A DNA stretch of 64,000 bases, from the NCBI GenBank assembly GCA_022843485.1, contig JALHNM010000010.1, forward strand, positions 1 to 64,000. The letters are read 5' to 3'. Below, piece by piece: positions 44,771 through 63,559 of the stretch; position 1 is the stretch's first letter, and each line of letters begins with the position of its first letter. The notes beneath the pieces were generated by a model. The model was given only the letters and a program-made list of their open reading frames with translations, made no database searches and had not been told where the DNA came from. Both the position numbers and the translations under genes were made by a program. Origin of the DNA: Fimbriimonadaceae bacterium. GTDB taxonomy: Bacteria > Armatimonadota > Fimbriimonadia > Fimbriimonadales > Fimbriimonadaceae.

Positions 44771-45331
44771 ATGGGTCGCTACAACATGAGTGGGCTCCGA
44801 ACGTACGGCTACGGCGATGATCTCGGCGCGTTCATGACCGCCGACGATCTCAAGGATGCGCTGATGGCGTCGGGTTCCGGCGCGGTCGGCATCCTCGCCA
44901 CGAGCTTCCTGCTCAGCAAGCTGCCGGCGGACATGGTCGCCGATCCGGCGATGAACTCCCGCCTCAAGAGCCTCATCGGCGTCGGCATCGGCGTCCTCGG
45001 CGGCCGGGCGATCTACATGTACGGCAACCGCGACGCGGCCATGGGCTTCGTCGGCGCCGTCGCCGGTGCGTCGCTCGCCTCGCTGGCGGCCAGCTGGGCG
45101 CCCGAGACCTTCCCGAGCGTGGCGCTCGCGGGCGGCGGGCTCAGCGACATGGACATCCGTGCGCTCGAGGCGACCGTCGCCTCGAACGAGCGCGGCTGGT
45201 CCCCTCCGGCGCAGCTCTCCTCGCCCAGCGTGATGGAGCAGACCCTGCGCAGCACCGAGACCAGCACCGAAGAGATCGCCGCGTACACCCACTTCATGGG
45301 CGACCGCAGCGCGCCTCCCCCGAGCTTCTGA
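44771..45331 (+). CDS. Multi-helix membrane protein, 186 aa, virion-type
   Basis: The ATG at 44771 follows the GAGGAGAAGAAGAAC leader shared by virion genes; an in-frame start lies seven codons earlier. MGRYNMSGLRTYGYG is followed by three or four hydrophobic stretches between residues 35 and 120 (ALMASGSGAVGILATSFLLS, LIGVGIGVLGGRAIYM, AAMGFVGAVAGASLASLA) and a soluble tail. It is the first gene of the virion operon, just before the capsid candidate, as would suit a viral membrane protein. Confidence 0.6.
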   Translation: MGRYNMSGLRTYGYGDDLGAFMTADDLKDALMASGSGAVGILATSFLLSKLPADMVADPAMNSRLKSLIGVGIGVLGGRAIYMYGNRDAAMGFVGAVAGASLASLAASWAPETFPSVALAGGGLSDMDIRALEATVASNERGWSPPAQLSSPSVMEQTLRSTETSTEEIAAYTHFMGDRSAPPPSF

Positions 45332-45407
45332 TCATCAGACGCTCCCGACTCGCAGACAGACTCAGGCCGTCGCGCACCTCGTAGTAGGGCGGATCACGGC
45401 GGCCAAA

Positions 45408-45430
45408 CCCACTCGCATGCAGTGAGTGGG
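45408..45430 (+). other. Hairpin in the capsid-candidate leader
   Basis: CCCACTC and GAGTGGG pair across a 9-base loop, ending about 18 bases before the ribosome binding site of the 45463 gene. Probably stabilises or processes the message. Confidence 0.5.
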
Positions 45431-45462
45431 CGTGGAAGAGACCCAGCAGAGGAGAAGACAAC

Positions 45463-46191
45463 ATGGGCAGCATTCTCGTTCCGATTCAGGGCCAGCCGGG
45501 CCTCTTCCGCGAAGTGGACGAGGCGACGGGCGCACCGATGGGTGATCGCGTCGTCAACATCCGCGACTTCCGCGAGGGCGACAAGTACGACACCGTCGCC
45601 ATCCCGACGGGCGTCATCACCGCGGGCACCGAGTTCACGTTCTTCAACAACCTGCAGGGCAAGTCGCAGGGCGTGGACACCAACCTCCGCACCTCGAGCA
45701 AGCTCTCGGCGGGCGAGTCGATGGTGCTCGACCGGATCGGTCTGCACGTTCGGCTCTCGACCGGCCAGGCGTTCCCCGCGCCTCAGGACATCAAGACCAT
45801 CCTCGAGAACAGCTTCTACCGGCTGAAGATCAACGACATCCTCCAGGACGAGGGTCCCGCGATCAAGTTCCCCTCGGGCTATGGCCTCTACGGTCAGACC
45901 AACGAGAACGGACAGGGCATCGTCACCAACGGCGTGCCCGCGACCGCCTCGACCGCTCGCCTCGTCAAGAAGCAGCTCCTCAACCAGAACCACGAGCTCG
46001 ACGGCCGGCTGATGTTCAATCAGCGCCAGTGGCTCACCTCGACCGTGCTCGGCCCGGCGCCGTTCGCGACCGCAGGCACCGAGCTCCCCGTCATCACGGT
46101 GCAGACCTCCACCTCGCCCCCGGCGAACGCGGCGGTTCTCGTGACGAACTTCCTGCACGGCCTCATCCGCGCCGCCGTCAGCAAGGGCTGA
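45463..46191 (+). CDS. Candidate major capsid protein (jelly-roll type)
   Basis: The 242-residue protein follows the strong leader CAGAGGAGAAGACAAC and is bracketed by a leader hairpin and a strong terminator, the sign of the most abundant product. It is beta-rich: VVNIRDFREGDKYDTVAIPT, TEFTFFNNLQGKSQ, ESMVLDRIGLHVRLSTG, FYRLKINDILQDEG. Size and pattern suit single jelly-roll capsid proteins of membrane-containing viruses rather than an HK97-type fold. The assignment rests on expression signals and pattern only. Confidence 0.45.
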   Translation: MGSILVPIQGQPGLFREVDEATGAPMGDRVVNIRDFREGDKYDTVAIPTGVITAGTEFTFFNNLQGKSQGVDTNLRTSSKLSAGESMVLDRIGLHVRLSTGQAFPAPQDIKTILENSFYRLKINDILQDEGPAIKFPSGYGLYGQTNENGQGIVTNGVPATASTARLVKKQLLNQNHELDGRLMFNQRQWLTSTVLGPAPFATAGTELPVITVQTSTSPPANAAVLVTNFLHGLIRAAVSKG

Positions 46192-46238
46192 TCGCTCGCG
46201 AGGGGCATCCGCGCCCGCGACTGCGCAAGCGGTCCAGA

Positions 46239-46271
46239 GCGAGCCCCGGTTCGACCCGAGCCGGGGCTCGC
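46239..46271 (+). terminator. Strong hairpin terminator after the capsid candidate
   Basis: GCGAGCCCCGG and CCGGGGCTCGC form an 11-bp stem followed by TTGGTTTCT. It probably reduces read-through so that the upstream gene is made in excess. Confidence 0.65.
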
Positions 46272-46315
46272 TTGGTTTCTGAGAGAGATTTTCTGGAGAG
46301 AGTACGGAGGAGCAC

Positions 46316-46834
46316 GTGGCCCGACAAGACATCACGCCCGCACAGATCCCGCCGGGCGACCTGCTGACCTACTACGGCGACCTCGCCAGCGGCGCTCTTC
46401 GTCCCGAGGACGTGAAGATCGAGACGCTGAGCTTCTCCGTGACGATCGGGCCCGACGGCCAGATCCGCAGCCAGGACCCGCAGAACGGGACGATCCAGAT
46501 CGTCTCCCGCTACAACCTGGCTCTCGAGACGGTCCGTGGCGCCATCCTGAGCCCCGACCTCGCGGGCGCAGCGCCCGGTCTCGTGAAGTTCAACCTCAAG
46601 GAGCAGGGGCGCAACTTCGACGTGTTCAAGCGGCCGGTGGGCTTCTCGACGCTGGTCGAGGGGTGCAGCAACCCGCTCGATTGGCGCGGCGTGTACATTT
46701 GTATCCCCGGCACCCAGTTCGAGGTGACGTGGTTCGTGGACCAGACCCTCTGGCCCGTGCTGGTCGGTGGCACTCGGCGGCTCGAGCTGACGGTCAGCGG
46801 CAGCTACATCGCGTGCAACCCCAACCAGGAGTGA
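46316..46834 (+). CDS. Virion-type beta-rich protein, 172 aa
   Basis: A GTG at 46316 follows ACGGAGGAGCAC. The sequence (VKIETLSFSVTIGPDGQIRS, FEVTWFVDQTLWPVLVGG, RRLELTVSGSYIACN) is beta-rich, again jelly-roll-like. It is the second protein after the capsid candidate and could be a minor capsid or spike-base protein. Confidence 0.5.
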   Translation: MARQDITPAQIPPGDLLTYYGDLASGALRPEDVKIETLSFSVTIGPDGQIRSQDPQNGTIQIVSRYNLALETVRGAILSPDLAGAAPGLVKFNLKEQGRNFDVFKRPVGFSTLVEGCSNPLDWRGVYICIPGTQFEVTWFVDQTLWPVLVGGTRRLELTVSGSYIACNPNQE

Positions 46835-46837
46835 TCG

Positions 46838-47194
46838 GTGAAGTTCTCGGTCGATTTCGGTGACGACGAACGCGGCAAGCTGATTGCCCGCGCGTATGTC
46901 GCTGCCGTTGTCGGCCCGCTGCGCCGGCCGAACGGGCGACCCACGCCGTTCGCGCTGACCACGGCTTCGGTGCAGATCGCTATCAACAACACCCAAGATC
47001 GGGTGATGCACGTGGCGGTGAGCCTCACGAGCGCGGCGCTGCAAGCGCTGCTGTTCAGCAACGGGGCGAACCAGGGCGCGCAGGCTCAGTCGCTGAACTT
47101 CGTCACCAACCACATCCTCTATCCGAGCGAGTCCTTGTACGTGCGCACGGTGGCGGGCAACGCGACGATCTCGGTCGTGACGGAGACCTTCTGA
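46838..47194 (+). CDS. Virion-type beta-rich protein, 118 aa
   Basis: A GTG start three bases after the previous stop. MKFSVDFGDDERGKLIARAY and VQIAINNTQDRVMHVAVSLT, then SLYVRTVAGNATISVVTETF, predict a compact beta sandwich. Candidate minor capsid or vertex protein. No family recognised. Confidence 0.5.
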   Translation: MKFSVDFGDDERGKLIARAYVAAVVGPLRRPNGRPTPFALTTASVQIAINNTQDRVMHVAVSLTSAALQALLFSNGANQGAQAQSLNFVTNHILYPSESLYVRTVAGNATISVVTETF

Positions 47195-47195
47195 G

Positions 47196-47744
47196 ATGGA
47201 CGAGAACGATCTCGACTCGTACGTGCAGGTGTTCATGGAGGGGCAGGACCGCGGTTACGCGCCCGTCTCGACCCGCACGTCGGAGCGCGACATCAACGTT
47301 CCCTTCCCTGTGCTGCCTGGGTATCTGCAGGGCGTCACGGCGGCAGCACCTCGGTCGGTGAACCCGACAGCGCTCGCGCCGAAGCAGCGGGCTGCGTACG
47401 TGGCGGCTGTGCGTGCGCGTGCGGTGGCGGCCCGGGCTCCTGCGCCGATGATGCTGACGACCTCGGCACCTGCTGCGAAGAGCTTTCCGGCGGCGCAGGC
47501 GGCGGGGGGCTCGTTGCCCTCCCCCTCTCCAGCGATGGGCGCCTCGTCGCCTCCGCCGCCGGACGCCACCACGCTCCTGCCGATGCCGTCCCCGCCTTCG
47601 TTTCCTTCGGCGATCACCACGAACGTGGCGCCGGGCTCGTGTCCTCCTTGTTCGTGCCCCGGCGGGATCTCCACCGGATCCATTTTGGCCCTCCTCGCAG
47701 CGGCGGGCTTTGCGAGCTACCTCCTCACGCAACGTGGGAAGTGA
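47196..47744 (+). CDS. Pro/Ala-rich protein with C-terminal membrane anchor
   Basis: The acidic N-terminus (MDENDLDSYVQVFMEG) precedes a Pro/Ala-rich middle and the C-terminal helix GSILALLAAAGFASYLLTQ ending RGK; CPPCSCPGG lies just before the helix. It is the first of a run of proteins with one C-terminal membrane segment and a basic end. Confidence 0.6.
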   Translation: MDENDLDSYVQVFMEGQDRGYAPVSTRTSERDINVPFPVLPGYLQGVTAAAPRSVNPTALAPKQRAAYVAAVRARAVAARAPAPMMLTTSAPAAKSFPAAQAAGGSLPSPSPAMGASSPPPPDATTLLPMPSPPSFPSAITTNVAPGSCPPCSCPGGISTGSILALLAAAGFASYLLTQRGK

Positions 47745-47791
47745 CGCGAGCGGAATCATCGAGTAGAATCGCGGAGTCGAGGAGAAGAACC

Positions 47792-48544
47792 ATGCGTGAG
47801 CAAATCGCAGTGTTGGATGGAATCAACGGTCTGGGCATGTCCGACCCGTACGCGCAGGACTACTCCGAGTTCGATGGACCTCGTGAGTTCACGCCCGTCC
47901 CTGGCGGCGGCGCGAATCGCTCGGGCGGCAGTGACTGGCACCCGATGACCCCCACGCTCCCCTCGAGCGAGGGCCTGGCCAGCTCGCTCGGCATGGAGAC
48001 CGTCAGCGGCGGTGGCTGGGCGGGGCGGAGCTACTCGCCCGTCCCCGGCGGCGGCGCGAACTACCAGGGCGGAAGCAACTGGCATCCCCTGACGCCCACG
48101 ATGCCCTCGAGCGAGGGGCTGGCCGGCACGCTCTCGATGGAAGAGGTCCCTGGCTACGCGGGGCGCAGCTTCACGCCGGTCCCCGGCGGCGGTGCGAACT
48201 ACACGGGCGGCTCCAACTGGAAGACCGAGTTCCCCACGAAGATCTCGAGCCAGGGCCTCGTCGGCTATCGCGGTCGCGGCCTGCGCGGGCTCGGCGAGAT
48301 CAGCGCGCTCGAGCGGGCCGCGTACTGCGGCGTGCTGACTGCGATCCGGCTCACGGGTCGGGCGATGTCCAAGCAGCAGATGGCGGGCATGGTGCTGCTC
48401 GCGATGACGCAGATGCCTGCGAGCGTCGTGCGCAACACCAAGACGGTGAGCTACTACGCGGCGCTCCAGACTGCCAGCCGGAGCATGCCTCTGGCGAGCG
48501 CCCGGGGCATCGCGCAGCGCGCGGCGCAGCACTGCGGCGGGTGA
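47792..48544 (+). CDS. Virion-type protein with three PVPGGGAN repeats
   Basis: The ATG at 47792 follows CGAGGAGAAGAACC. Three repeats of about 38 residues share FTPVPGGGANxxGGSxW and SSEGL; the segment GYRGRGLRGLGEISAL then leads to a helical C-terminal domain (RMSKQQMAGMV-like region at about 190-250). The repeats may coat or bridge surfaces. The GLRGLG segment recurs in other virion-type proteins. Confidence 0.6.
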   Translation: MREQIAVLDGINGLGMSDPYAQDYSEFDGPREFTPVPGGGANRSGGSDWHPMTPTLPSSEGLASSLGMETVSGGGWAGRSYSPVPGGGANYQGGSNWHPLTPTMPSSEGLAGTLSMEEVPGYAGRSFTPVPGGGANYTGGSNWKTEFPTKISSQGLVGYRGRGLRGLGEISALERAAYCGVLTAIRLTGRAMSKQQMAGMVLLAMTQMPASVVRNTKTVSYYAALQTASRSMPLASARGIAQRAAQHCGG

Positions 48545-48554
48545 GGCGGCCGCG

Positions 48555-50228: not shown

Positions 50229-50236
50229 AACACACC

Positions 50237-51451
50237 ATGCTCTCCTACGCATCTCAGACTCCTCGAGCCTACGCCTCCAAGGTCCAGCGGTACGCACCTG
50301 GCGATCCGCGTCGCAAGGTCGCGGCAGCTCGAGCTGTGCTCGCACTGCGAGCGGCCGAGGCTGCGCAGCGGCAGGACTTCGCCGGAGCGCGCCACGCGCT
50401 GAACGGGCTCGAGCAGCTCGCGACGTTCGGCGACATCGACACTGCGGCGATCTCCGCCCGCATCTCTCGAGATCTGACGAACGCGGCGGGGCGGCTCACG
50501 CCCGACGCACGCGCGATCGCGACCGGACAGCGCGTGTCGGGGATCATCGCGACGGTGGCGGGGATCGTCGGACCCGTCACGCAGATCATCGCGCAGGCGA
50601 CGAACGACCCCGGGATCATCCGCGCGGTCAGCTGGATGAATCTGATCATCGCTGGGCAGGTGTCGCCTTCGTTCGGCGAGGACGACCTGCGGCTGATGGC
50701 CAGTGCGTGCGGCGCCTGGAACGGTGGCGTGAAGGCGGCAGTGATGGGCATCAAGGCGGCGCTCACGCTCACGCTCACGCTCGCGGGCGGGGAGGCGGCG
50801 ACGGTCGGTCCTCAGGTGGTCAACAGCCTCTTCGGCTGGATCATCACGGCGCTCGACACCATCTGCACGAACCTGGCGACGGTGTTTCCGCCGGCCTCGT
50901 TGCCGCCCTCGTGCGCGGGCGCGGGCGTTCGGCCGGGCACGGGCGACGTGCCTGCGGGGGCTGCGGGCTGCTGTCCCGGACTCGTGTTCGACGCGAGCAG
51001 CGGCCGCTGCCAGAACGAGAGCACCGTGACGCCGGTGGGTGCGGCGATGGCGCGCTGGGTGACGGCGTGGACGGCCCGCCGCAACGTCGAGGTGTTCTTG
51101 TCGGGGGTGCCGGGCGTGAGTGCGACCGCGCTCGCGAACGCGCAGGCGAACGACGCGAGCACGGCGGCCGAGCTGTGCGCGGCGGAGACTGCACTGCTCG
51201 CGTTCAGGAATCCGATCCCGGCTCGAGGCACGATGCCGACTGCAGAAGCGGCTGCCCGCGCGATGACGAACACGCTGACGCTCGCAGCGACGTTCTACTC
51301 GGCGCCGAGCACGCGGCCGCGTTGCTACATCTTGCGCCCTCCCGCGAGCGGGTGCTCGTGCGGGGGTGTGAGCTCGGGTGGCGGGAGCGGCGGAATCGTC
51401 GCGTTCGCGTTGCCCGCTGCTGCACTCGTGTGGTACATGATGAAGGGTTGA
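50237..51451 (+). CDS. Virion-type membrane protein, 404 aa
   Basis: MLSYASQTPRAYASKVQRYA begins a helical domain (LALRAAEAAQRQDFAGARHA); hydrophobic segments occur near 100-140 (GIIATVAGIVGPVTQIIAQA). A Cys-rich part (CCPGLVFDASSGRCQNE) lies near 235-250 and a C-terminal helix GIVAFALPAAALVWYMMKG closes it. It resembles its neighbours in anchoring but no family is recognised. Confidence 0.6.
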   Translation: MLSYASQTPRAYASKVQRYAPGDPRRKVAAARAVLALRAAEAAQRQDFAGARHALNGLEQLATFGDIDTAAISARISRDLTNAAGRLTPDARAIATGQRVSGIIATVAGIVGPVTQIIAQATNDPGIIRAVSWMNLIIAGQVSPSFGEDDLRLMASACGAWNGGVKAAVMGIKAALTLTLTLAGGEAATVGPQVVNSLFGWIITALDTICTNLATVFPPASLPPSCAGAGVRPGTGDVPAGAAGCCPGLVFDASSGRCQNESTVTPVGAAMARWVTAWTARRNVEVFLSGVPGVSATALANAQANDASTAAELCAAETALLAFRNPIPARGTMPTAEAAARAMTNTLTLAATFYSAPSTRPRCYILRPPASGCSCGGVSSGGGSGGIVAFALPAAALVWYMMKG

Positions 51452-51486
51452 TCGGTTTTCCGACAGTCCCCTGAGGAGAAGAAGAC

Positions 51487-51624: not shown

Positions 51625-51676
51625 ACATCGTCGCGTCGCACTCCGCGACGTAGAACCCCAACTCGAGGAGAAGACG

Positions 51677-51994: not shown

Positions 51995-52018
51995 GAGACC
52001 TTGGAGAGGGGCTCAACC

Positions 52019-52246: not shown

Positions 52247-52278
52247 TTTCCAGGCGGTAGAAAGAGGAGAAGAAGACC

Positions 52279-52389: not shown

Positions 52390-52428
52390 GGACTGCTCGT
52401 CGGGCGTAGAGCTCGGCGGCGCCCCTCG

Positions 52429-52487: not shown

Positions 52488-52877
52488 ATGGCCTTGGACC
52501 CGACCCGGCGCCCCATTGCCGGCGCCCGCATCCCTGCGACCGAGGTCGCGGTGGTGTGGCTGCAGCGGCAGTTGAACAGCGGCGCTCTCCGTCCGGGGAT
52601 TGCTGAGGACGGCGTCATGGGGCCGCAGACCGAGGCGGCGTTGCGGGCCTACGTCACGGGGGTGCTCCGGCAGCCGGTCTCGTCGCCCGTGTACGTGGCG
52701 CAGGTGAATCCAACGGACCGGACGCGAGTCGCGGTGTCGACCGCGCTCGAGGCGGCGCTCGCGGGCGCGGCCGGATCCGCAGAAGGGGGCGGCATGCTCA
52801 TGCCGTTGCTCGGGGTCGCTGCGGTCGTCGGGGTGTTCTATTTCTACTCGCGAGACAAGAGCCGAGGCCGACGATGA
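52488..52877 (+). CDS. Peptidoglycan-binding protein with C-terminal membrane anchor, copy 1
   Basis: CAGGAGACACCC precedes the ATG. Residues 19-58 (VVWLQRQLNSGALRPGIAED, then GVMGPQTEAALRAYV) are a PG_binding_1 domain. The C-terminus MLMPLLGVAAVVGVFYFYS plus RDKSRGRR is one membrane helix with a basic end. It would link a virion membrane to host peptidoglycan. The next gene is its paralogue. Confidence 0.75.
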   Translation: MALDPTRRPIAGARIPATEVAVVWLQRQLNSGALRPGIAEDGVMGPQTEAALRAYVTGVLRQPVSSPVYVAQVNPTDRTRVAVSTALEAALAGAAGSAEGGGMLMPLLGVAAVVGVFYFYSRDKSRGRR

Positions 52878-53260
52878 TCTACACCCCTGTGCTCGCGGTT
52901 CAGCGGTACCTCAATCAATGGGGAGCGCGCCCCTCCGTGGCAGAGGATGGCGTGTGGGGCCCGCAGACGGAAGCTGCGCTCTCTGCATTCGCGCGCATGA
53001 ACGTGCTGCCCTATGAGCGAGGGGTAGGCTACTTGGTGCCCACGGGAGCGTTGCTCATGTCCAACACGATGGGTGTGTCGGACATGCTGTACGCCCGGCT
53101 CACCAACCCACCCCGGATGCCCGGAGAGTCGGCCGAGGGGTCGTCGGGTTTGTTCGTCGTCGGGGCGGTGGTCGTCGGTGCGCTCCTCTACTGGAGTTCG
53201 CAGGGGAAGCGCACGGGCTTGCGCGGGATCCGAGCGCGACGGCGGCGAGGTCGGCGATGA
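52874..53260 (+). CDS. Peptidoglycan-binding protein with C-terminal membrane anchor, copy 2
   Basis: The ATG overlaps the previous stop. VLAVQRYLNQWGARPSVAED and GVWGPQTEAALSAF form a PG_binding_1 domain at residues 6-40; GLFVVGAVVVGALLYWSSQ is the membrane helix; the end KRTGLRGIRARRRRGRR is strongly basic. It is a tandem duplicate of the previous gene that has diverged. Confidence 0.75.
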   Translation: MIYTPVLAVQRYLNQWGARPSVAEDGVWGPQTEAALSAFARMNVLPYERGVGYLVPTGALLMSNTMGVSDMLYARLTNPPRMPGESAEGSSGLFVVGAVVVGALLYWSSQGKRTGLRGIRARRRRGRR

Positions 53261-54270
53261 CCTGCGCGATCCCGCCGCTCGACCAGAGCGAAGTCCGCAT
53301 CGGGCGCGGCTACGGCATCGGGTACAACAGTGCCCGCACCGTCCGGGACCAGCTGCACGCGGGCATGGACTTCGTCGCGAGCGGCGGGGCGCCGGTGCTC
53401 GCGCCGTTGCCGGGTGTCGTCGACTTCTTGACGTTCGACGACGGGCCTCGCATCTCGGCGGACCAGGCACGAGGGGGCGCTCGAGGGCAGGTCCGGCAGA
53501 TGGGCGGGTACGGCAACGCGGTGGTGCTGCGGCACGACGTTGCGGTGCCTGGGCTGCCGAACCCGTTCTTCACGAGCTACAACCACATGCGCGGGCATGG
53601 GCCGGGGCTGGCGCCGGGCGTGGCGGTGGCGACGGGGCAGCTTCTCGGCACGGTCGGCGGGACCACGAACCGGCAGTTCCCGGGGATGGGCGCTCACCTG
53701 CACATGGAGTTGCGGCGCGTTCCTTTCCCCGGGAGCTACGAGCGGGACACGCTCGACCCGAATCTCATGTGGAGCGGGCTCGGTATCGACTGGATCGGAG
53801 GGCGCACGGAGATCGAGCGTCGGGTCGGCGGGCAGTTGCTCATCCGCGCGGACGGGCCTTCGGGACCTGCGGTGTGCCCGAGGACGACGGCGGGGCTCGC
53901 TGCGTTCGGCTACTCGAGGACGCGCGTCGAGCGCGTGAAGCCGCATGACCTGCCGTTCTACTTGAGCGGCATCGACGCGTACATGAGCGAGCTCCCGGGC
54001 TTCACGTTCGGGTCGGTGCCGGCGGGGTACGTGGATCCGGTGCGGCTCAAGACGAGCTACTCGAGCAAGGGCACGACGCAGGCCCCGCGCGAGGGCTCGC
54101 CGGCTGCGGACGTGATGCCCCCGGACTACGCGCCCTCGGGCTCGCCGGTGGCGACCGCGGCCGGTGCTGCGGCTTCTGCGGGAGCGGCTGCGGTCGGGAA
54201 CTCGGCGATCTGGATCGGCGGCGGGATCGCAGCGGCGATCGTGATCGCGGGCATGATGAAGGGCAGGTAG
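53257..54270 (+). CDS. M23 metallopeptidase with C-terminal membrane anchor
   Basis: The 337-residue protein has His34-x3-Asp38 (LHAGMDF), a long insertion, SYNHMRG (His110) and the HLHME motif at 147-151, a complete M23 zinc site. After a Pro/Ala linker it ends in IWIGGGIAAAIVIAGMMKG. It should cut peptide cross-links of peptidoglycan during entry. MTCAIPPLDQ at its start matches the 54550 protein. Confidence 0.8.
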   Translation: MTCAIPPLDQSEVRIGRGYGIGYNSARTVRDQLHAGMDFVASGGAPVLAPLPGVVDFLTFDDGPRISADQARGGARGQVRQMGGYGNAVVLRHDVAVPGLPNPFFTSYNHMRGHGPGLAPGVAVATGQLLGTVGGTTNRQFPGMGAHLHMELRRVPFPGSYERDTLDPNLMWSGLGIDWIGGRTEIERRVGGQLLIRADGPSGPAVCPRTTAGLAAFGYSRTRVERVKPHDLPFYLSGIDAYMSELPGFTFGSVPAGYVDPVRLKTSYSSKGTTQAPREGSPAADVMPPDYAPSGSPVATAAGAAASAGAAAVGNSAIWIGGGIAAAIVIAGMMKGR

Positions 54271-54273: not shown

Positions 54274-54546
54274 ATGGCGACAAAGAAGCGAAAGCGGAAG
54301 AGCGGGCTGCGGGGTACGCCTGCCGAACATCTCACGCAAGCGGCGGAACTGAAGAAGATCACGGCCGCAAATCTTCGAGCGAACAACACCTGCGCGGGCG
54401 CGCTCATGAACGTGGGGGATGCTGCCGTGATGCGCGAACACGCACTCGAGGCTGGTGTGGCTGGCAGGAAGCTGCGCAAGGCAGCTATCCGCACGATGAA
54501 CAGCGCCGTCGCGAACGCAAAGAAGCTCTGCGGCTGCGGTCGTTGA
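54274..54546 (+). CDS. Basic helical protein, 90 aa
   Basis: MATKKRKRKSGLRGTPAEHL starts a basic protein with helices (LEAGVAGRKLRKAAIRTMNS) and ends KKLCGCGR. Similar in style to the basic proteins at 51677 and 5064, with the GLRGTP segment also found at 56568-57257. Probably DNA-associated. Confidence 0.6.
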   Translation: MATKKRKRKSGLRGTPAEHLTQAAELKKITAANLRANNTCAGALMNVGDAAVMREHALEAGVAGRKLRKAAIRTMNSAVANAKKLCGCGR

Positions 54547-54549
54547 GCC

Positions 54550-55386
54550 ATGCCCTGCGCGCTTCCGCCGGTCGACCAGGCCTCCTCCCAGCTCGGGTGG
54601 GGGTGGGGGAACTTCTCGGGCTCGGGGCGCGCCTTGGCGTTGCACCGGGGCTTGGACTTCATGGCGGACGAGGGCTCGCCGGTGCTGGTGCCGTACGCGG
54701 GGACGGTCGTGGCGGTCGGCAGGCAGGACTACGGGGACGCGATTCGGCCGGGGGCTGATGGGCTTGGGCACTACGTGGCGATCGCTCACGGGGCCGTGGA
54801 GGCGGGGCAGCGCCCGATCGCCACGAGGTACGCGCACCTGAGGAGCGCCAGTCCGTTGCGGGTCGGGCAGCGGGTCGCGGCGGGGGACTTGGTCGGGTAC
54901 GTGGGCACGAGCGGCAGGGCGCCGGGCAGTCGGCCGCTCCTGTTCTTTCAGACGCTCTGGGACCGGGACGGGATGGACTACGTGAACGCCGTGCCGCTAG
55001 AGCCGCTGCGGTACTTCTTCGCGCCTCTCGGGGTGCAGCACGAGGGCGGGCAGGTGCCTGGACCTCCGGTGACGCCGTACACGAGCACGCCGACGTGGGG
55101 CGGGAGGCTTCTGCAGGACTCGAGCTGCGAGGCGCCGGGCTTGGCGAGCGTGGCGGACCCGAGGCGGCAGCAGGCTCGCTACGCGCGGTTCGGGAGCACG
55201 CAGCTTTCGAGTCGTGCGGTCTACCCGCCGGCATTATACGATGCGGGCACGTCGCCCGATTCCTCGAGCGGCGTTCTCGTCCTCGGGCTGGCTGCTCTCG
55301 CGGGCGGGGTGTGGTGGCTGACCAGGAAGGCAGCACCGAAGCCCCCGCCTTGGTGGGTGCGACAGCAGCGCTGGAGACGGAAATGA
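54550..55386 (+). CDS. M23-like protein lacking the second zinc motif, membrane-anchored
   Basis: The 278-residue protein starts MPCALPPVDQ like the 53257 product. It keeps His32-x3-Asp36 (LHRGLDF) and YAHL (His96), but where HxH should be it reads PLLFFQTL (131-133). It is thus a likely pseudo-enzyme that binds rather than cuts peptidoglycan. C-terminal anchor GVLVLGLAALAGGVWWLT with a basic end RQQRWRRK. Confidence 0.75.
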   Translation: MPCALPPVDQASSQLGWGWGNFSGSGRALALHRGLDFMADEGSPVLVPYAGTVVAVGRQDYGDAIRPGADGLGHYVAIAHGAVEAGQRPIATRYAHLRSASPLRVGQRVAAGDLVGYVGTSGRAPGSRPLLFFQTLWDRDGMDYVNAVPLEPLRYFFAPLGVQHEGGQVPGPPVTPYTSTPTWGGRLLQDSSCEAPGLASVADPRRQQARYARFGSTQLSSRAVYPPALYDAGTSPDSSSGVLVLGLAALAGGVWWLTRKAAPKPPPWWVRQQRWRRK

Positions 55387-55718
55387 GCTTCTTTCACATC
55401 GCGTGCGTCGTGGTCTTCGTCGCGCTCACGGTCCCGGGCTTCGTGCTCGCCGTGAGGGCGCTGCCGCGGGTCGAGGCCTGGGTGGTGGCAGGCATCAAGC
55501 CCTGGGCCTGCGACATCTGCATGTGCTTCTGGTCCACGGGGCTGTGGGTGCTGGGGTACGCGTGGCTCGAGGAGGATGCGCGGATCTTGCTCGCGTGCGG
55601 GCCGGCGTACTCGCTGGCGCTCTTGCTGCTGGCGTACATGCAGCGTCCTCCGCCGGGTAGCGGGCCCCCGCCCGAGCCGCCGGAGACGACGGGTCTTGCT
55701 GAGGAGCTCGAGGGCTGA
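55383..55718 (+). CDS. Three-helix membrane protein, 111 aa
   Basis: The ATG overlaps the previous stop. Hydrophobic segments at 5-25, 48-62 and 68-85; ACDICMCFWSTGLWVL resembles the Cys pairs of DUF1360-like small phage membrane proteins. Pro/Glu-rich tail. A holin or virion membrane role is possible. Confidence 0.55.
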   Translation: MSFFHIACVVVFVALTVPGFVLAVRALPRVEAWVVAGIKPWACDICMCFWSTGLWVLGYAWLEEDARILLACGPAYSLALLLLAYMQRPPPGSGPPPEPPETTGLAEELEG

Positions 55719-56224
55719 TGCTGCCCTTGCTCGGCAAGATCGCGCTCGCGTACGTCGGTGTCGAGACGGTGGACGCGTTCGTGTTGCGGCGCTGGTGGCG
55801 GCGCACCTCGTATCGCGCCGCGCTCGAGAAGGCGCGAGCGACGGGCAAGCCGTTGCTGGTCGTCGGGCGCCCGCAGGCCGGGTACATCAACAACGTGATC
55901 GGCCCGGACTACGGCTGCGGCGACGTGTGCACGGACATCATCGGGTGCTCGCCGTGCCCGAGGGAGATGAAGGGGCCGCTCGAGGAGATCCTTCCGAGGA
56001 TGCCGACGAGCTCGCACGTGATCTACGTCTCGTGCACGCTCGAGTACGTCGACAACCTGCCGTGGTGCGCGGCGGAGTTGGACCGGGTCGCGGTGCCGGG
56101 CGGGCTGTTCGTCGTGCGCGTCGCCCCCGGGTCCAGCACGTTCTGGTTGTGGCCTGGGGCGAAGTGGGTGCTCGCGTCCGCGCCCCCGGGTCCCTGGCGG
56201 TTCATGCGCAGGTCGGGCACGTGA
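55718..56224 (+). CDS. Methyltransferase-like protein with N-terminal hydrophobic segment
   Basis: After MLPLLGKIALAYVGVETVDA and a basic patch, the sequence (GPDYGCGDVCTDIIGCSPCP, YVSCTLEYVDNLPWC, VAVPGGLFVVRVAPGS) follows the later half of class I methyltransferase folds, but the SAM-binding Gly loop is not clear. It may be degenerate. Overlaps both neighbours. Confidence 0.45.
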   Translation: MLPLLGKIALAYVGVETVDAFVLRRWWRRTSYRAALEKARATGKPLLVVGRPQAGYINNVIGPDYGCGDVCTDIIGCSPCPREMKGPLEEILPRMPTSSHVIYVSCTLEYVDNLPWCAAELDRVAVPGGLFVVRVAPGSSTFWLWPGAKWVLASAPPGPWRFMRRSGT

Positions 56225-56571
56225 CCTCGTGGGCCGAGTGGCTGGTGCAGGCTCGACCTGCGCTGCAGCGCGGGGAGAAGGTCCCGGTGCCGACGGACAT
56301 CCCGCCACCGCCCTCGGCGGGGTTCACGCAGTACACGGGGCCCACGGAGAACCACGGCCAGATCGAGGACTGGGTGCATCCGCTCGAGAACGGCTCGCGC
56401 CTGCACGCGTACAAGTACGCGGACGGGCGATGGTTCGTGCACCTCGACAACTACGACCCGAACGTGTCGCTGCTCTACCTCGTGCTGCACCTTGGTTCGG
56501 AGACCTCGGTGGGCAAGCTCGCGCTCCTGGGCGGTCTCGGCTACCTGGGGTATCGTTGGGCGAGGCGATGA
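56221..56571 (+). CDS. Membrane-anchored protein, 116 aa
   Basis: A GTG overlaps the previous stop. The soluble part has QIEDWVHPLENGSRLHAYKY and GRWFVHLDNYDP; the end KLALLGGLGYLGYRWARR is a short membrane helix with basic residues. Same topology as neighbours; function unknown. Confidence 0.55.
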   Translation: MTSWAEWLVQARPALQRGEKVPVPTDIPPPPSAGFTQYTGPTENHGQIEDWVHPLENGSRLHAYKYADGRWFVHLDNYDPNVSLLYLVLHLGSETSVGKLALLGGLGYLGYRWARR

Positions 56572-57257
56572 GTTCGATCCCCACCAACCTCGGCACGATC
56601 GTGGGCGGCAGCAGCTATCGCTACCAGCTGACGCCGAACGACCTCTTGTGGCTCGCGCGATCGGTGCAGTACGAGGGCGGGAACAACCTCGCGACGGCGT
56701 GGACGTACGCGCAGCGGCAGGTGCTCTACCGGCGGACGAACTCGCTCGCGAGCTTGGTGCAGATGCACAGCCAGCCTGTGAACCCGAAGTGGCGGAGGGA
56801 CGGAGAGTTCTGCCGGCCCGGAGGTCGGTACGCAGGCACGGACCGTTGCTCTCCGAGCCGGCTCGACACGAGGGACGAAGCGGCAAACTTGCCGTGGGCG
56901 AGCGTTCGGGAGAGCATCCGTGATCTGGTCACGCGTTGGGCGTTGGGCGAGACCACGAACCCGGTGCCGAGGGCCACGGACTTCGCGGACCCTGCGGTGT
57001 CGCGAGGCTTCATCGAGCGCAACCCCGGCACGCGCATCGTGCTCGAGGACGGCAACTGGTACTTGGCGGAGACGGGCGCGCAGCGCTGGGCCCCGAACCA
57101 CGTGCAGATCCTTCCGCCGGGGGAGCGCACCGAGACGGGCGGCATGCTCATCCCCGCGGCCATCGCCGCTGCGGGCGCGGTCTGGTACTTCTCGAGGGGC
57201 AAGCGCGGTGGGCTCCGCGGCACGCCGGTCCCGGCCCCGAGGAAGCGGCGGCGATGA
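56568..57257 (+). CDS. Cell-wall hydrolase-like protein with C-terminal membrane anchor
   Basis: The 229-residue protein has LLWLARSVQYEGGNNLATAW (Glu at about 32 as a possible catalytic residue, lysozyme/SleB style) and CRPGGRYAGTDRCSPSRL, then a membrane helix GGMLIPAAIAAAGAVWYFS and the basic tail beginning GKRGGLRGTP. It resembles the early membrane protein at 3655 in layout of its lytic-type domain. Activity is inferred. Confidence 0.55.
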   Translation: MSSIPTNLGTIVGGSSYRYQLTPNDLLWLARSVQYEGGNNLATAWTYAQRQVLYRRTNSLASLVQMHSQPVNPKWRRDGEFCRPGGRYAGTDRCSPSRLDTRDEAANLPWASVRESIRDLVTRWALGETTNPVPRATDFADPAVSRGFIERNPGTRIVLEDGNWYLAETGAQRWAPNHVQILPPGERTETGGMLIPAAIAAAGAVWYFSRGKRGGLRGTPVPAPRKRRR

Positions 57258-57577: not shown

Positions 57578-57705
57578 TTCCGCCGGTACAGAGAGCGATC
57601 GCCTGGCGCGACTACGGCAGGCGGCGGCCCACGTCCATGGGGACGCACGAGGAGAAGGCCGCGTGGCTCGAGGCGGTCGTGTGGCTGCTGGAGCGGCTGC
57701 GATGA
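57574..57705 (+). CDS. Micro-protein, 43 aa
   Basis: A GTG start overlaps the previous stop and the end overlaps the next ATG. VIPPVQRAIAWRDYGRRRPT leads to a helix EEKAAWLEAVVWLLERLR. Supported only by coupling and position. Confidence 0.4.
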   Translation: MIPPVQRAIAWRDYGRRRPTSMGTHEEKAAWLEAVVWLLERLR

Positions 57706-58355
57706 GCCGGTACGTCGTCGTGGGCGACTCGCAGGCCGAGGGCGTGCTCATGAGCGGGGCCTTGCCGGCGCTGCTCGGGGAGGACCTCGTCGGGAGCTAC
57801 GATCATCGGGGATGGGGCTCGGCGCGGCTGCTCTCGGACGGGGCCATCGGCACGGCCTTGGGCCGAGCGGCCTCTGCGGGCGCGAAGCTCCTGATCTTCT
57901 CGGGCGGCAACGACAACAACGTGCTAGCCACCCCGGAGGCGTTCGAGCGCTACAAGGAGACGTTGCTCGACATCGTGCGGGCGATCGCGCGCAAGAGCGC
58001 GGCGGCGGACGTGCCGTTGAGCGTGGTGTGGTTCGGGCCGGTGTTCGCGCTCGAGCCCAGCAACGCGCGGCAGCACCCCGACACGGCGCGAGCGATGGCG
58101 TCGGTGCTGCGGTCGAGTGCTGTGCAGCGCGCGGTCGCCGAGGTGCCTGGGGCTCGGGTGTCGTTGCGGTTCGTCGACAGCCAGCCGCTCACCCGTGATC
58201 TGGCGCGCGTCGAGAACGTGCACCTGACGGCGACCAACTACCGGAAGTACGCCGAGCGGGCGCTGAGCGCGGCGGAGAGCGGGGGCGGGCTCCTCGAGCT
58301 GCTGCTCCTCGGAGCGGCCGGGTACGGTGCGTGGCGCTTGTGGAGGATGCGATGA
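57702..58355 (+). CDS. SGNH/GDSL hydrolase with C-terminal membrane anchor
   Basis: The 217-residue protein shows YVVVGDSQAEG (GDS with Ser10), a HRGWGSARLL block, FSGGNDNN and VHLT near 180, the four SGNH blocks. The end GGLLELLLLGAAGYGAWRLW plus RMR is a membrane helix. A deacylase acting on cell-surface or envelope substrates during entry is likely. Confidence 0.7.
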   Translation: MSRYVVVGDSQAEGVLMSGALPALLGEDLVGSYDHRGWGSARLLSDGAIGTALGRAASAGAKLLIFSGGNDNNVLATPEAFERYKETLLDIVRAIARKSAAADVPLSVVWFGPVFALEPSNARQHPDTARAMASVLRSSAVQRAVAEVPGARVSLRFVDSQPLTRDLARVENVHLTATNYRKYAERALSAAESGGGLLELLLLGAAGYGAWRLWRMR

Positions 58356-59489: not shown

Positions 59490-59498
59490 ACTCCGAGG

Positions 59499-59741
59499 AT
59501 GGAAGAGGCGATCGGTACACTGACAGGCGCGGGCATCCCGGGGGCGATGCTCGTGCTGCTCGGTATGGCGTACTACCGACTCGACCAACGACTCAACGCG
59601 GTGCAAGAGGCTCGGGTCGCGGACGCGCAGCGTGTTGCTGCAGCGGCCCTCGAGCGCGAGGAGAAGTGGCAGACCGTGATTTCGCAGTTGGCTGACGCCG
59701 TTGAACGCGTCGCTGACCGCACCACCGGCGCACGCAAGTAG
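59499..59741 (+). CDS. Small membrane protein with coiled coil, holin/spanin-like
   Basis: MEEAIGTLTGAGIPGAMLVL and LGMAYYRL give an N-terminal membrane helix; the remainder is a coiled coil (RVADAQRVAAAALEREEKWQ). Two genes later comes the amidase endolysin, so a lysis role (holin, or inner-membrane spanin) is plausible from topology and position. Confidence 0.5.
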   Translation: MEEAIGTLTGAGIPGAMLVLLGMAYYRLDQRLNAVQEARVADAQRVAAAALEREEKWQTVISQLADAVERVADRTTGARK

Positions 59742-59749
59742 GAGGTCCC

Positions 59750-59992
59750 ATGAGCGAGCAGCGACCCAAGCGAGATCCGAAGCAATCCACGCCGCGCATG
59801 TTGGCGGTGCGCATGCAGAGGGCGCACGAGGACAAGGTGCCGATGGACTTGGACTACGAGGAGGTCACGGGCGTGATCGACGTGGCCCTCGAGAAGTCGC
59901 GGGCGATCACCGAGGCGGGTGTCGAGAGGGTTCGCGAGCTCTGCCGCAAGCTGGACTCCTCGATGCCCCCGCCCAAGCCGGACCCGGCCTGA
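59750..59992 (+). CDS. Small protein, 80 aa, in the lysis cassette
   Basis: GTAGGAGGTCCC precedes the ATG. MSEQRPKRDPKQSTPRMLAV then YEEVTGVIDVALEKSRAITE; soluble, helical, Pro-rich end. No family recognised. Confidence 0.5.
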   Translation: MSEQRPKRDPKQSTPRMLAVRMQRAHEDKVPMDLDYEEVTGVIDVALEKSRAITEAGVERVRELCRKLDSSMPPPKPDPA

Positions 59993-59998
59993 GGCATC

Positions 59999-60700
59999 GT
60001 GATCCCCTCGTTCCTCAACCTCGTTCCCGACCAGGACCCGAAGATCTTCCCACGGAAGATCGGGGCGGACGGGAAACCCGTCAACACGAGCAAGGTCGTG
60101 GGCGGGCGCACGTTCGTTCGCAAGCCCGAGGACATCACGGGGATCGGCATCCACCAGACCGCGTGCGTGTTCGGGCCTCTCGACGACCCGCAGAAGCGCC
60201 ACCGGCGAGCGCTCAAGGTGCCGGCGCACGTGCTCGCGTTCCGGGACGGCGTCTACGCGCAGAGCGCGCCCTTGCTCTGGGAACTCTACCACGGCAACGC
60301 GCTGAACCCGTTCACGCTCGGGCTCGAGCTCGAGGGGCAGTACCCGGGGCTGCTCGACGACCCGAGCACGCCCGTGCGCGAGGACGAGAAGACGTTCTGG
60401 AAGGGGGGCTCTGGCAAGCCCACGCCGCTCGACGCGCAGGCGCTCGCCACGTTCCGGGTCGCGCTCGCGTTTCTGGTCGAGGAGGGCCGCAAGCTCGGCT
60501 GCCCGATCAAGTACATCTGGGCGCACCGGCAGGCGAACGGGACCAGGGACTCGGATCCGGGGCAAGAGATTTGGCAGCGCGTCGTCATCGAGTTCGGCGA
60601 GCGATCGCTGGGGCTCGAGGCGCGATGCGCGGACACGTGGCGTGATGGGCGCCCGATCCCCAAGGCGTGGGATCCGAGAGGCTTTGGGTCGTACCGATGA
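59999..60700 (+). CDS. N-acetylmuramoyl-L-alanine amidase (endolysin)
   Basis: The GTG at 59999 begins VIPSFLNLVPDQD. The 233-residue protein has the Amidase_2 pattern: TGIGIHQTA (His52), YHGNALNPFTLGLELEGQ (Glu near 112), WAHRQANGTRDSDPG (His176, Asp184/186). It cleaves the amide bond between N-acetylmuramic acid and the stem peptide, for lysis or entry. It has no signal peptide or anchor, so release needs a holin, for which neighbours at 59499 and 60697 are candidates. Confidence 0.8.
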   Translation: MIPSFLNLVPDQDPKIFPRKIGADGKPVNTSKVVGGRTFVRKPEDITGIGIHQTACVFGPLDDPQKRHRRALKVPAHVLAFRDGVYAQSAPLLWELYHGNALNPFTLGLELEGQYPGLLDDPSTPVREDEKTFWKGGSGKPTPLDAQALATFRVALAFLVEEGRKLGCPIKYIWAHRQANGTRDSDPGQEIWQRVVIEFGERSLGLEARCADTWRDGRPIPKAWDPRGFGSYR

Positions 60701-60966
60701 GCATCGAGAACTGGATTCCTGTCTTGGTCACCGCTTTGGTCCACATCTTCGTGGTCGCGCCGGTGATCTACTGGTCATTGAACGCGAAGTTGGAGCGAGA
60801 CATGGACAGCAAGATCAAAGAGCAGCGGACCGAGAACCAAGCATCGTTCGCGCCGAAGAGCGAGGTCGAGGTCCTGAGCAAGGACATGAAGCGCGCCCTC
60901 GATCTGTTCGAGAGGATCGATGGCAAGCTCGACCGCTTCCTGGCGATGAAGCCGCCCACGTCATGA
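60697..60966 (+). CDS. Small membrane protein with coiled coil, lysis-associated
   Basis: MSIENWIPVLVTALVHIFVV with APVIYWSL forms an N-terminal membrane helix; residues 35-85 are a charged coiled coil (EVLSKDMKRALDLFERIDGK). Coupled by ATGA to the endolysin. Holin accessory (XhlA-like) or spanin-like by topology. Confidence 0.5.
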   Translation: MSIENWIPVLVTALVHIFVVAPVIYWSLNAKLERDMDSKIKEQRTENQASFAPKSEVEVLSKDMKRALDLFERIDGKLDRFLAMKPPTS

Positions 60967-61280
60967 ACGTAGAGTGGAAGGAGCGGCTCGAGGCGCTCGA
61001 GGAGCGCGTCGCGCGCATGGAAGGCAGGCAGTTCGAGCTGGCGACGCGCGTCGCCACGCTGGCCGTGCTGATCTCGGAGAGCGCGCTCGAACATCGCGAG
61101 AAGCCCACGGCCGCCAAGGTCCCGAGCCGCGCCGTCGTCGAGCACTACCGGGAGATGCAGGCCTTGGCGGTGGAGATCGGGGACCTGTTCGGCAGCACGC
61201 GCGCGGAGTTCGCGGAGATCCGAGCACGGATGAAGACGCCGCCCGGGGGCTATCCGGCGCCCCCGAAGAGGTCGCGATGA
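60963..61280 (+). CDS. Coiled-coil protein, 105 aa
   Basis: MNVEWKERLEALEERVARME begins a coiled coil; a moderately hydrophobic stretch RVATLAVLISESALEH follows, then a Pro-rich basic end PGGYPAPPKRSR. Overlaps the previous gene. Possibly pairs with the coiled coil at 60697. Confidence 0.5.
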   Translation: MNVEWKERLEALEERVARMEGRQFELATRVATLAVLISESALEHREKPTAAKVPSRAVVEHYREMQALAVEIGDLFGSTRAEFAEIRARMKTPPGGYPAPPKRSR

Positions 61281-61531
61281 GCATGCCCCTGACGCGCAGG
61301 CAGTTGTTCGAGGTGATCCGAGACCTGGACGAGCACTTCGACGGCGTCGGCATGTCGCCGCTCGTGAAGCGTGCGTGGGGGCTCGCCAAGGCCGAGCTGC
61401 GGAACAGGTACGCGTCCCAGCCCGCGCTCGTGCAGAACGCCGTGGACGCGCGGGAGCAGGCTCAGAAGACGCTGGACGGGCTCGAGGCCCAAGCCCCTAC
61501 CAGCGGCGGCCGCGGAACTTCCGGGGCTTGA
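61277..61531 (+). CDS. Last gene of the rightward operon, 84 aa
   Basis: MSMPLTRRQLFEVIRDLDEH is helical; the tail is Gly/Ser-rich. Its end overlaps by 35 bases the convergent gene at 61497, so the two operons meet here without a spacer terminator. Confidence 0.5.
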   Translation: MSMPLTRRQLFEVIRDLDEHFDGVGMSPLVKRAWGLAKAELRNRYASQPALVQNAVDAREQAQKTLDGLEAQAPTSGGRGTSGA

Positions 61532-62735
61532 AGCTCGAGAGCCCGACCGTCTTGCGGCCCGCGGGGGTCATCAGGAAGTAGTAGGCGGCACCCGCGAGGC
61601 CAAGGCCCACAGCGATGCCTCCGAGGCCGAGCTCGAGGCCGGGGCCGGGCGGGTACTTGGGCATGGGCGCGAGCGCCTCGGCTTGGCGAGCGCACTCGGT
61701 GGTGCCCGTGCTGGCGGCGAGGCAGCGCTCGTAGATGGCGCGACGACGCTCGGCGACTCCGGCAGCCGCTTCGGACGCGGCGCGAGCCGCGAGCACCTGG
61801 GTGAGCGCGTACATGGGCACGGCGATGGCGATGACGACCGCGACGATGGAGAGCAGGCCGATGATGATCAGGATGAGCGTGCCGAGGGGGATGGAGACGA
61901 TGCCGCCGTCCCCGAGCCCGCGCAGCCCGCGCACGGCGCCCCCGGCGCCCCCGCCCACGCGGGCGCGGACCTGATTGACGTAGCTCGCGAAGGTGCCCGT
62001 GATCCCGGCGAAGTCGCCGGAGCGGATGCGCTCGACATCGGCGCTCGTGGGGACCCAGGGGATTTCCCGGTCGGGGGCTTCGAGGCCCGGGGGGCGCGTG
62101 ACGGGCGGGATGAGCGCGGCGGTGGTGGGGTCCGCACGACGGATGAGGGCGATCACGGGGTTGTAGATCCCGAGCGCGGCCTTGTAGTAGCTCGTGGCGG
62201 CGGTGTTGTAGGCGCTCACGTCCTCGGAGGAGAGGGGGAGGCCCACGGCGCGCACGGCACGGAGCTTCTGGCGGAGGACTTCGAGGTCGCGCTCGGTCAG
62301 GGCCAGCTGGTAGATGGCGGCGACCACGTCCTGGGGCATGGGCGGCAGGGTGAGGCCCGCCTCGGCAGCCCACGCACCTGCCGTGCGCCCGGCTTCCTCG
62401 AGCAGCGAAGGGGGGAAGCTCCCGAGCCCGCGCAGGCCGCTCAGAGCGGTGCGCTTGGCACCGCCGCCGCAGCCGCAGTCTTCGCCGAGATCACCGAACC
62501 GCGGGCCGGGCGCCATGCGCTTGGACCAGGGCCGGGGCGCGCTCAGACCGCGCAGGGCGGGATCCATCGCCGTCTCGTCGGTGATGACCATGCCGTCCAT
62601 GCCGCCCATGAGCATCCAGCCTGGGGTGACGGGCTCGCGATCGGTGATGGGCTCTCCGCAGCACGGCGCGCCGACGGGCGGCCAGGGCGATGCGTGATCG
62701 GTCGAGGCCGGGAGAAGCTGAACGTCGAGGGGCAT
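61497..62735 (-). CDS. Membrane protein, 412 aa, virion-type, with GLRGLG segments
   Basis: The ATG at 62733-62735 (MPLDVQLLPASTD) overlaps the upstream stop; AGGAG lies before it. N-terminal Cys-rich segment (EDCGCGGG), helical middle, then GTLILIIIGLLSIVAVVIAI (about 290-310) and a second helix GGIAVGLGLAGAAYYFLM near the end, followed by a basic tail (KPRKFRGRRW). ALRGLS, GLRGLGSF and GLRGLGDG occur at three places. Likely a membrane component of the particle. Confidence 0.6.
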   Translation of the reverse strand: MPLDVQLLPASTDHASPWPPVGAPCCGEPITDREPVTPGWMLMGGMDGMVITDETAMDPALRGLSAPRPWSKRMAPGPRFGDLGEDCGCGGGAKRTALSGLRGLGSFPPSLLEEAGRTAGAWAAEAGLTLPPMPQDVVAAIYQLALTERDLEVLRQKLRAVRAVGLPLSSEDVSAYNTAATSYYKAALGIYNPVIALIRRADPTTAALIPPVTRPPGLEAPDREIPWVPTSADVERIRSGDFAGITGTFASYVNQVRARVGGGAGGAVRGLRGLGDGGIVSIPLGTLILIIIGLLSIVAVVIAIAVPMYALTQVLAARAASEAAAGVAERRRAIYERCLAASTGTTECARQAEALAPMPKYPPGPGLELGLGGIAVGLGLAGAAYYFLMTPAGRKTVGLSSFKPRKFRGRRW

Positions 62736-63559
62736 CAGGAACTCCTGCTGAGGCGGTTGGCGCGTTGCTCGAGAGTGCGCGCTTCCATGAACCGACCCTC
62801 GTGGCGACGGCGCTGGGCGAGCTTGCGGAGGCGGTTGGTCTTCACGTAGACGGGCACGCGCCCGAGACCACGGAGGGGGCTGGCTTGGGTGGCGTAGTAC
62901 GCGTAGCCGGCCGCGACGGCGAGGAGGACGAGGATGCCGCCGTTGCTCGAGGGGGCTGCGGCGACGACGGCCGCGCGCCCAGGGGCGCCGGTAGCGAAGA
63001 AGCCGTAACGACTCGCCAAGTCCCCGCTGGGGCCGTTCAACAGCCCCAGCACGGTCGAGATCAGGGACGACAGCAGTGCACCGTCCGCCCGCGCGCAAGG
63101 GCGGGAGAAACCGGAAGCAGTGCACACGAAGGCAGGCCAGGGCATCGGAAGGACTTCGCCCTCGAAGACCTTGGTGACCTTGGTGATCGTGTTCACTTCG
63201 GCCGCGTCCGTGTCGTTGGGCAGCTCGAAGAGGCTGCCCGCGTCCGCGCACTCGGCCCGGCAGCGAGCGACCTCCGCAGCAGAGCCTCCCGCCTCTCGAC
63301 CCGAAGCATCGCAGATGGCTTGGCACGTCGCCAAGGACGGCACAGGCCACACGCCAGCAGGCACCGTCAGCGCGTAGTACGCACCCCGAGCCGCAGTGGC
63401 CGGCACGAAGCGAGGGCGCGGAGTGACCCATGAGCGTTCCACTCGCGCTGGGGAAGGCGTCAGACCCAGAGCGCGCAGCATCGGATCGAGGCGCGCGTCC
63501 ATGAGAGACGGTGGGAACACCTCACCGCCGAAGAGGTACTGCGTGAAGACGTAGCGCAT
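62735..63559 (-). CDS. Membrane-anchored virion-type protein, 274 aa
   Basis: The ATG at 63557-63559 starts MRYVFTQYLFGGEVFPPSLM. A Cys-rich part (ATCQAICDASG, ARCRAECADAG) precedes a helix GGILVLLAVAAGYAYYAT, and the C-terminus carries PLRGLGRVPVYV and a basic end. Same topology as the membrane-anchored series on the plus strand. Confidence 0.55.
   Translation of the reverse strand: MRYVFTQYLFGGEVFPPSLMDARLDPMLRALGLTPSPARVERSWVTPRPRFVPATAARGAYYALTVPAGVWPVPSLATCQAICDASGREAGGSAAEVARCRAECADAGSLFELPNDTDAAEVNTITKVTKVFEGEVLPMPWPAFVCTASGFSRPCARADGALLSSLISTVLGLLNGPSGDLASRYGFFATGAPGRAAVVAAAPSSNGGILVLLAVAAGYAYYATQASPLRGLGRVPVYVKTNRLRKLAQRRRHEGRFMEARTLEQRANRLSRSS

Follow-up and report, generated by a model that had tools for sequence, protein, structure and literature searches.

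A 96-kb viral contig from a Fimbriimonadaceae bacterium encodes an array of membrane-anchored proteins and probably represents a tailless membrane phage

We analysed a 64,000-nucleotide stretch of DNA (the window) from a Fimbriimonadaceae bacterium, bases 1–64,000 of contig C10 (JALHNM010000010.1; 96,268 bp) in a genome of 2.96 Mb and 20 contigs, in which genes between 44.7 and 63.6 kb encode an array of proteins ending in a membrane helix. Contig C10 is viral over its full length, and we consider it probable that it represents a tailless phage with an internal membrane, of the broad design of Salisaeta icosahedral phage 1 (SSIP-1) and with a genome more than twice the size. Features are collected in Table 1, and genes are named by their first coordinate.

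A strict anchor rule (17 residues with a mean Kyte-Doolittle value of at least 1.6, no D, E, K or R inside, and an end no more than 25 residues from the C-terminus) recovered a C-terminal helix with a short tail in 10 of the 32 proteins encoded at 44.7–63.6 kb and in 3 of 113 elsewhere on the contig (Fisher p = 1.4e-5). When the array proteins were shuffled over 300 rounds, the mean was 0.8 anchors and the maximum 4. The anchor array is far above chance. The same rule found anchors in 7 of 24 proteins of SSIP-1 (gp33–57), 7 of 34 of Thermus phage P23-77 and 1 of 22 of PRD1, all tailless, and in none from the tailed phages Schubert (0/52) and MW202816 (0/56). The proportion in the array is about that of the structural genes of SSIP-1, which supports the reading as a tailless membrane phage. 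The original prediction had listed 12 genes with such C-terminal helices: nine carry a strict helix and a net basic tail (47196, 48555, 50237, 52488, 52874, 53257, 54550, 56568 and, on the minus strand, 61497), whereas 56221, 57702 and 62735(−), in which the final hydrophobic segment is weaker, shorter or further from the end, pass under a looser rule alone. A strict helix is also present in 55383, with an acidic tail. All listed genes lie where predicted, except that the first starts at 44750, position 44771 being an internal start; several other proteins of the contig have uncertain starts (e.g. 10533–11784, 47639/47792 and 50237/50336). The peptidoglycan (PG)-binding, M23 and GDSL/SGNH domains proposed for the array were recovered (those of 52488 and 57702 just under the cut-off), but the lysozyme-like domain of 56568 was not, no enzyme domain being found there in Pfam, NCBIfam or PHROGs.

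The phage SSIP-1 has an icosahedral, tailless particle of about 100 nm (T=49) with a membrane inside, a circular 44-kb dsDNA genome and two capsid protein types (PMC6260650, PMC6356626). Its structural protein gp34 is homologous to the transglutaminase-fold product of 27600(−): among 50,697 phage records gp34 was the sole match (E = 7e-12), direct comparison gave a blastp E-value of 3.5e-17 and 97.5% in hhalign, and the catalytic Cys, His and Asp are kept. In the reverse search, gp34 retrieved, apart from SSIP-1, only an unannotated phage record of 4.5 kb and an archaeal virus that is pleomorphic and membrane-enveloped. A gp34 alignment recovered only SSIP-1 from IMG/VR and nothing from GTDB contigs; in genomes of the host phylum it gave weak, much poorer matches in long frames, which we take for cellular transglutaminases. 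Tectiviruses, to which the virus had initially been compared, are not the closest relatives; the sole specific homology link is to SSIP-1 gp34.

Architecture is shared as well. The two viruses have in common C-terminal anchors among structural genes (in SSIP-1 including gp34 itself), an integrase and PG-binding lytic proteins, and the product of 52488 matches the PG-binding part of the SSIP-1 endolysin gp31 (E = 9e-5). Gene order is alike upstream of the gp34 homolog, where 28469(−) gave no sequence signal to gp33, and the product of 44750 resembles, in position and character alone, gp44, which precedes the paralogous SSIP-1 capsid candidates gp45 and gp46. In contrast to gp34, the product of 27600 lacks a C-terminal anchor and has a hydrophobic N-terminus instead. 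The tie to SSIP-1 thus consists of one homologous protein and a common architecture.

The original prediction saw no tailed-phage hallmark genes and named a terminase-portal-HK97 module in the flanking sequence as the finding that would speak against it; no such module was detected on the rest of the 96-kb contig. PHROGs and Pfam scans of nearly all its predicted proteins revealed no terminase, portal, HK97 capsid, tail tube or sheath, judging in two contig-wide PHROGs scans by the best 25 of 48 and the best 25 of 56 families, with most unexplained late proteins rescanned singly. Walker A motifs occur only in the SF3-like helicase 19673, its short paralog 18828 and an intein-bearing DEAD helicase (13157). 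A model of the terminase large subunit (TerL) had no match on C10 and detected a terminase-like gene on contig C4 of the same genome (151063–152484, a 447-aa open frame), so the search works. The C4 gene marks a separate tailed-phage-like element. A tape-measure match in PHROGs is probably due to the M23 proteins.

Foremost among the alternatives, although we regard it as unlikely, is a very divergent tailed phage with head and tail genes beyond profile detection and unusual anchored lysis proteins. The PolA, ThyX, RuvC-like and RNA ligase genes are like those of tailed phages, the PolA record closest to it belongs to a tailed phage in which terminase and baseplate genes are present, and many phage structural proteins are orphans. 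However, TerL is the most conserved protein of tailed phages and its model does match elsewhere in this genome, the Walker A motifs of the contig are confined to helicases, and both tailed phages examined lack C-terminal anchors.

We give slightly less credence to a membrane-enveloped pleomorphic virus that has neither icosahedral capsid nor packaging motor and carries the anchored proteins in a lipid envelope. The lack of a recognisable capsid gene and of a detected packaging ATPase would fit such a virus, and a gp34-like transglutaminase is also present in Geoglobus acetivorans pleomorphic virus 1 (PMC10919331). The genome of that virus is only 13 kb, however, and the contig encodes several lytic or hydrolase genes, two fibre modules and a specific homolog of a structural protein from an icosahedral phage. 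Very unlikely, in our view, is a non-viral mobile element or phage-plasmid (a defective provirus) whose anchored hydrolases act on the envelope of its own host: an integrase, a ParB-like gene and a free-standing contig without host flanks would suit it, but an endolysin-type amidase, the fibre modules, the virion-protein homolog and a full viral replication and nucleotide set argue against it, and no conjugation genes were noticed.

The contig appears to be a complete or nearly complete viral genome of about 96 kb. It holds about 154 closely packed genes (92% coding by a codon-usage gene finder) and no host-like flanks, both ends consisting of small, dense, minus-strand genes. An element of about 88 bp, which contains an inverted repeat and probably serves several genes as a common regulatory leader, occurs at 798–885, 1277–1365, 2192–2280 and 2727–2812 and once more at 95787–95875. 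Because these copies are confined to the two contig ends, they support circularity and near-completeness, and C10 is probably a circular or permuted genome opened between them. We can hardly credit that the contig is a fragment with packaging and capsid genes on a missing part: no exact terminal overlap was found between its ends, but four of the five copies lie within 2.8 kb of one end, the fifth within 0.5 kb of the other and none between, and the late cluster is bordered by the integrase and early genes inside the contig. The proposal of a virus much larger than tectiviruses is thereby borne out as regards genome size, and the tyrosine integrase makes its proposed temperate lifestyle possible.

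By position, the likeliest major capsid protein is the product of 45463, with 46316 and 46838 as further candidates beside it; the paralogous pair 63729/64403 (49% identical) provides alternative capsid or vertex candidates. The product of 45463 had no relatives in IMG/VR, GTDB contigs, INPHARED phages or 291 genomes of the phylum, that of 46316 none in an IMG/VR scan and no capsid relative, and neither matched a capsid chain of the Protein Data Bank by sequence. A 33% match to 45463 over 80 aa in one phylum genome lies inside a 939-aa frame and looks like chance. A likeness by eye of 45463, near its N-terminus, to gp45/gp46 was dropped (hhalign 0.3%, profile-shuffle z 1.7). IMG/VR scans with the products of 8372, 19673, 48555 and 54550 also returned no relatives. 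With no relatives found in IMG/VR, GTDB contigs, phages or the 291 host-phylum genomes, the virus counts as an orphan.

Several points weigh against a large SSIP-1-like phage. Only one protein is specifically homologous to SSIP-1, and transglutaminase folds occur in cells too and could be transferred. Similarity of 45463, 46316 and 63729/64403 to gp45/gp46 did not exceed reversed or shuffled controls, nor was any other tested protein of the window detectably related to these. AlphaFold gave unusable models of 45463, with a pLDDT of 34 both for the protein by itself and with rows of gp45/gp46 added, so that the jelly-roll capsid initially proposed is so far unsupported and may be entertained as a conjecture. 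The FtsK/HerA-type packaging ATPase expected in the original prediction was searched for and not found: PF01580 (FtsK/SpoIIIE) had no match on C10 even at E = 10, whereas P23-77 and PRD1 have a packaging ATPase and SSIP-1 has the structural ATPase gp40, of which we found no counterpart. The reading we favour does not account for DNA packaging, and the missing ATPase is its largest gap. A 96-kb genome would need a particle larger than the 100-nm, T=49 capsid that holds 44 kb in SSIP-1 (PMC6260650), and although some tailless phages do without a packaging ATPase, their genomes are small.

Such phages are known from the Odin and FLiP groups (PMC5894146, PMC6260650), which, like the phage proposed here, have neither tail nor packaging ATPase, but which have double jelly-roll capsids and small genomes (about 7–18 kb for the set; 9 kb of ssDNA in FLiP). 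P23-77 (Matsushitaviridae) is like the proposed phage in being tailless, in its C-terminally anchored virion proteins and lytic enzymes, and in two small capsid proteins whose size is comparable (VP16, 173 aa; VP17, 291 aa); it differs in its 17-kb genome and its FtsK/HerA-type ATPase, and no sequence similarity was noticed. PRD1 (Tectiviridae) would share an internal membrane and virion-associated lytic enzymes, but has a linear 15-kb genome, protein-primed replication, the packaging ATPase P9 and few C-terminal anchors. Assignment to Tectiviridae is opposed by the family A polymerase, the failure to find a packaging ATPase and the 96-kb size. C10 yielded neither the FtsK/HerA-type ATPase of Helvetiavirae (vertical single jelly-roll viruses, with two major capsid proteins of that fold) nor the TerL, portal, HK97 capsid and tail genes of Caudoviricetes. 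The boldest reading that we would entertain, with less than even confidence, is that the virus is the first of a new group of high rank, made up of bacterial viruses that contain a membrane and have no tail, with a genome of about 96 kb, its own capsid proteins, a dozen tail-anchored wall-degrading or structural vesicle proteins and no packaging ATPase, enclosing its large dsDNA genome by some other route.

In a tailless membrane phage of this kind, the late plus-strand cluster would supply the capsid candidates 45463, 46316 and 46838 and two fibre or spike modules, together with about a dozen vesicle proteins, each held by a single C-terminal helix in a lipid vesicle under the capsid. HCIV-1 and HHIV-2 illustrate how, in viruses of this type, vesicle proteins with a C-terminal anchor give the shell its organisation (PMC6414509). 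The anchored proteins have one terminal helix and, by eye, no signal peptide, which makes their tail-first insertion into the host membrane probable; this would place their domains on its cytoplasmic face. Once capsid proteins had wrapped a membrane patch, these domains would lie in the space that separates the vesicle from the shell, with the short basic tails facing the packaged DNA. On entry, the M23 peptidases, PG-binding proteins and hydrolases anchored in the vesicle would open the cell wall so that the DNA could be delivered; at exit, the soluble amidase may act. The virion lipid, protein topology and entry mechanism, like every step beyond the encoding of anchored proteins, are what we infer from the genes.

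Reviews give genomes of about 7–44 kb for prokaryotic internal-membrane viruses, SSIP-1 being the largest (PMC5894146, PMC6260650, PMC6356626); the size comparison made here rests on these reviews and not on an exhaustive literature search. The broad design is known; what is new is how large the genome is, how far the set of anchored lytic proteins extends, and that neither capsid nor packaging genes can be recognised. If our interpretation is right, particles built around an internal membrane can reach the genome sizes of ordinary tailed phages, SSIP-1 has its first distant relative in the collections searched, and the question arises by what means a genome of this size is packaged when no motor can be recognised. 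Surveys relying on capsid, terminase or ATPase markers would miss viruses of this kind.

Table 1. Features of contig C10 (window coordinates equal contig coordinates; roles of orphan proteins are candidates).
Position	Strand	Feature	Remark
798..2812	−	~88-bp element, four copies	copies immediately precede successive minus-strand genes
8372..10528	−	family A DNA polymerase	
18828..19400	−	190-aa paralog of helicase 19673	43% identical, intact Walker A; directly downstream of it
19673..21616	−	DUF5906/AAA (SF3-like) replicative helicase	
22300..23140		non-coding, direct and inverted repeats (GTGACAGTGGTGACA and CTAC..TAGTTTTT)	between divergent gene blocks
27600..28328	−	transglutaminase-fold protein, homolog of SSIP-1 structural protein gp34	C166/H199/D218 conserved
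28469..30298	−	609-aa protein directly upstream of gp34 homolog	positioned like gp33 in SSIP-1, no sequence match
30394..31365	−	XerC/D-type tyrosine recombinase (integrase)	
31758..38807	+	fibre or spike module 1	ends in 1348-aa tandem-repeat protein (34761–38807)
42124..44627	+	fibre or spike module 2	
44750..45331	+	193-aa hydrophobic protein	head of virion cluster, just before main capsid candidate
45463..46191	+	242-aa orphan, main major-capsid candidate by position	strong ribosome site, set apart by intergenic gaps
46316..46834	+	172-aa orphan, second capsid candidate	
46838..47194	+	118-aa orphan, minor capsid or vertex candidate	
47196..47744	+	protein with C-terminal anchor	ectodomain rich in Pro and Ala
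47792..48544	+	250-aa protein, GGGANY/GGSNW repeats	GLRGLG motif, no C-terminal helix
48555..50228	+	557-aa protein with membrane helices inside and at the C-terminus	basic tail SRSSR
50237..51451	+	404-aa protein, C-terminal anchor	
52488..52877	+	PG-binding-like domain, C-terminal anchor	domain just below cut-off; tail YSRDKSRGRR
52874..53260	+	PG-binding domain, C-terminal anchor	domain over cut-off; strongly basic tail
53257..54270	+	M23 peptidase, C-terminal anchor	
54550..55386	+	M23 peptidase, C-terminal anchor	basic tail
55383..55718	+	two-helix membrane protein	putative holin-like topology
56221..56571	+	small protein, weakly hydrophobic C-terminal stretch	basic tail; looser rule only
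56568..57257	+	C-terminally anchored protein	tail SRGKRGGLRGTPVPAPRKRRR
57702..58355	+	GDSL/SGNH hydrolase-like, short C-terminal hydrophobic stretch	30.8 bits, cut-off 32.9
59999..60700	+	N-acetylmuramoyl-L-alanine amidase (Amidase_2)	non-anchored; endolysin candidate
61497..62735	−	two-helix protein, C-terminal anchor	basic tail, two GLRGLG motifs
62735..63559	−	membrane-helix protein	51-residue basic tail
63729..64307	+	192-aa first member of adjacent paralogous pair	63729..64000 in window
64403..64930		175-aa second member of the pair	beyond window

The motif GLRG recurs in basic tails and linkers of the array (52874–53260, 54274–54546, 56568–57257 and 61497–62735), with nine occurrences on the contig against 1.4 expected. 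We rejected it as a processing site: across the array it is within shuffle expectation and not unusual among all 4-mers there.

In the second fibre module, 42371 matches the C-termini of virion and minor tail proteins in PHROGs, and 43872 is a SASA esterase. The small proteins at 33246–33599 and 42124–42366, each at the head of its own fibre or spike module, look paralogous by eye, which suggests duplicated receptor-binding cassettes.

The replication and nucleotide genes comprise PolA, the SF3-like helicase, an RNA ligase and ThyX, and the contig also carries the integrase and ParB-like and RuvC-like genes. The repeat-rich stretch at 22300–23140 is a candidate replication origin. A tRNA with a CUA anticodon, of the amber-suppressor type (Pyl in ARAGORN), lies at 11786–11862(−). 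Wholesale recoding is unlikely because TAG ends 15 of the 154 genes; the pairs 53257/54274 and 88171/87637 are each in frame across a single TAG. The DEAD-type helicase at 13157–16174(−) is split by an apparent intein of several hundred residues, running from CFPGSTLVHTD to HNYFADNTLVSNC.

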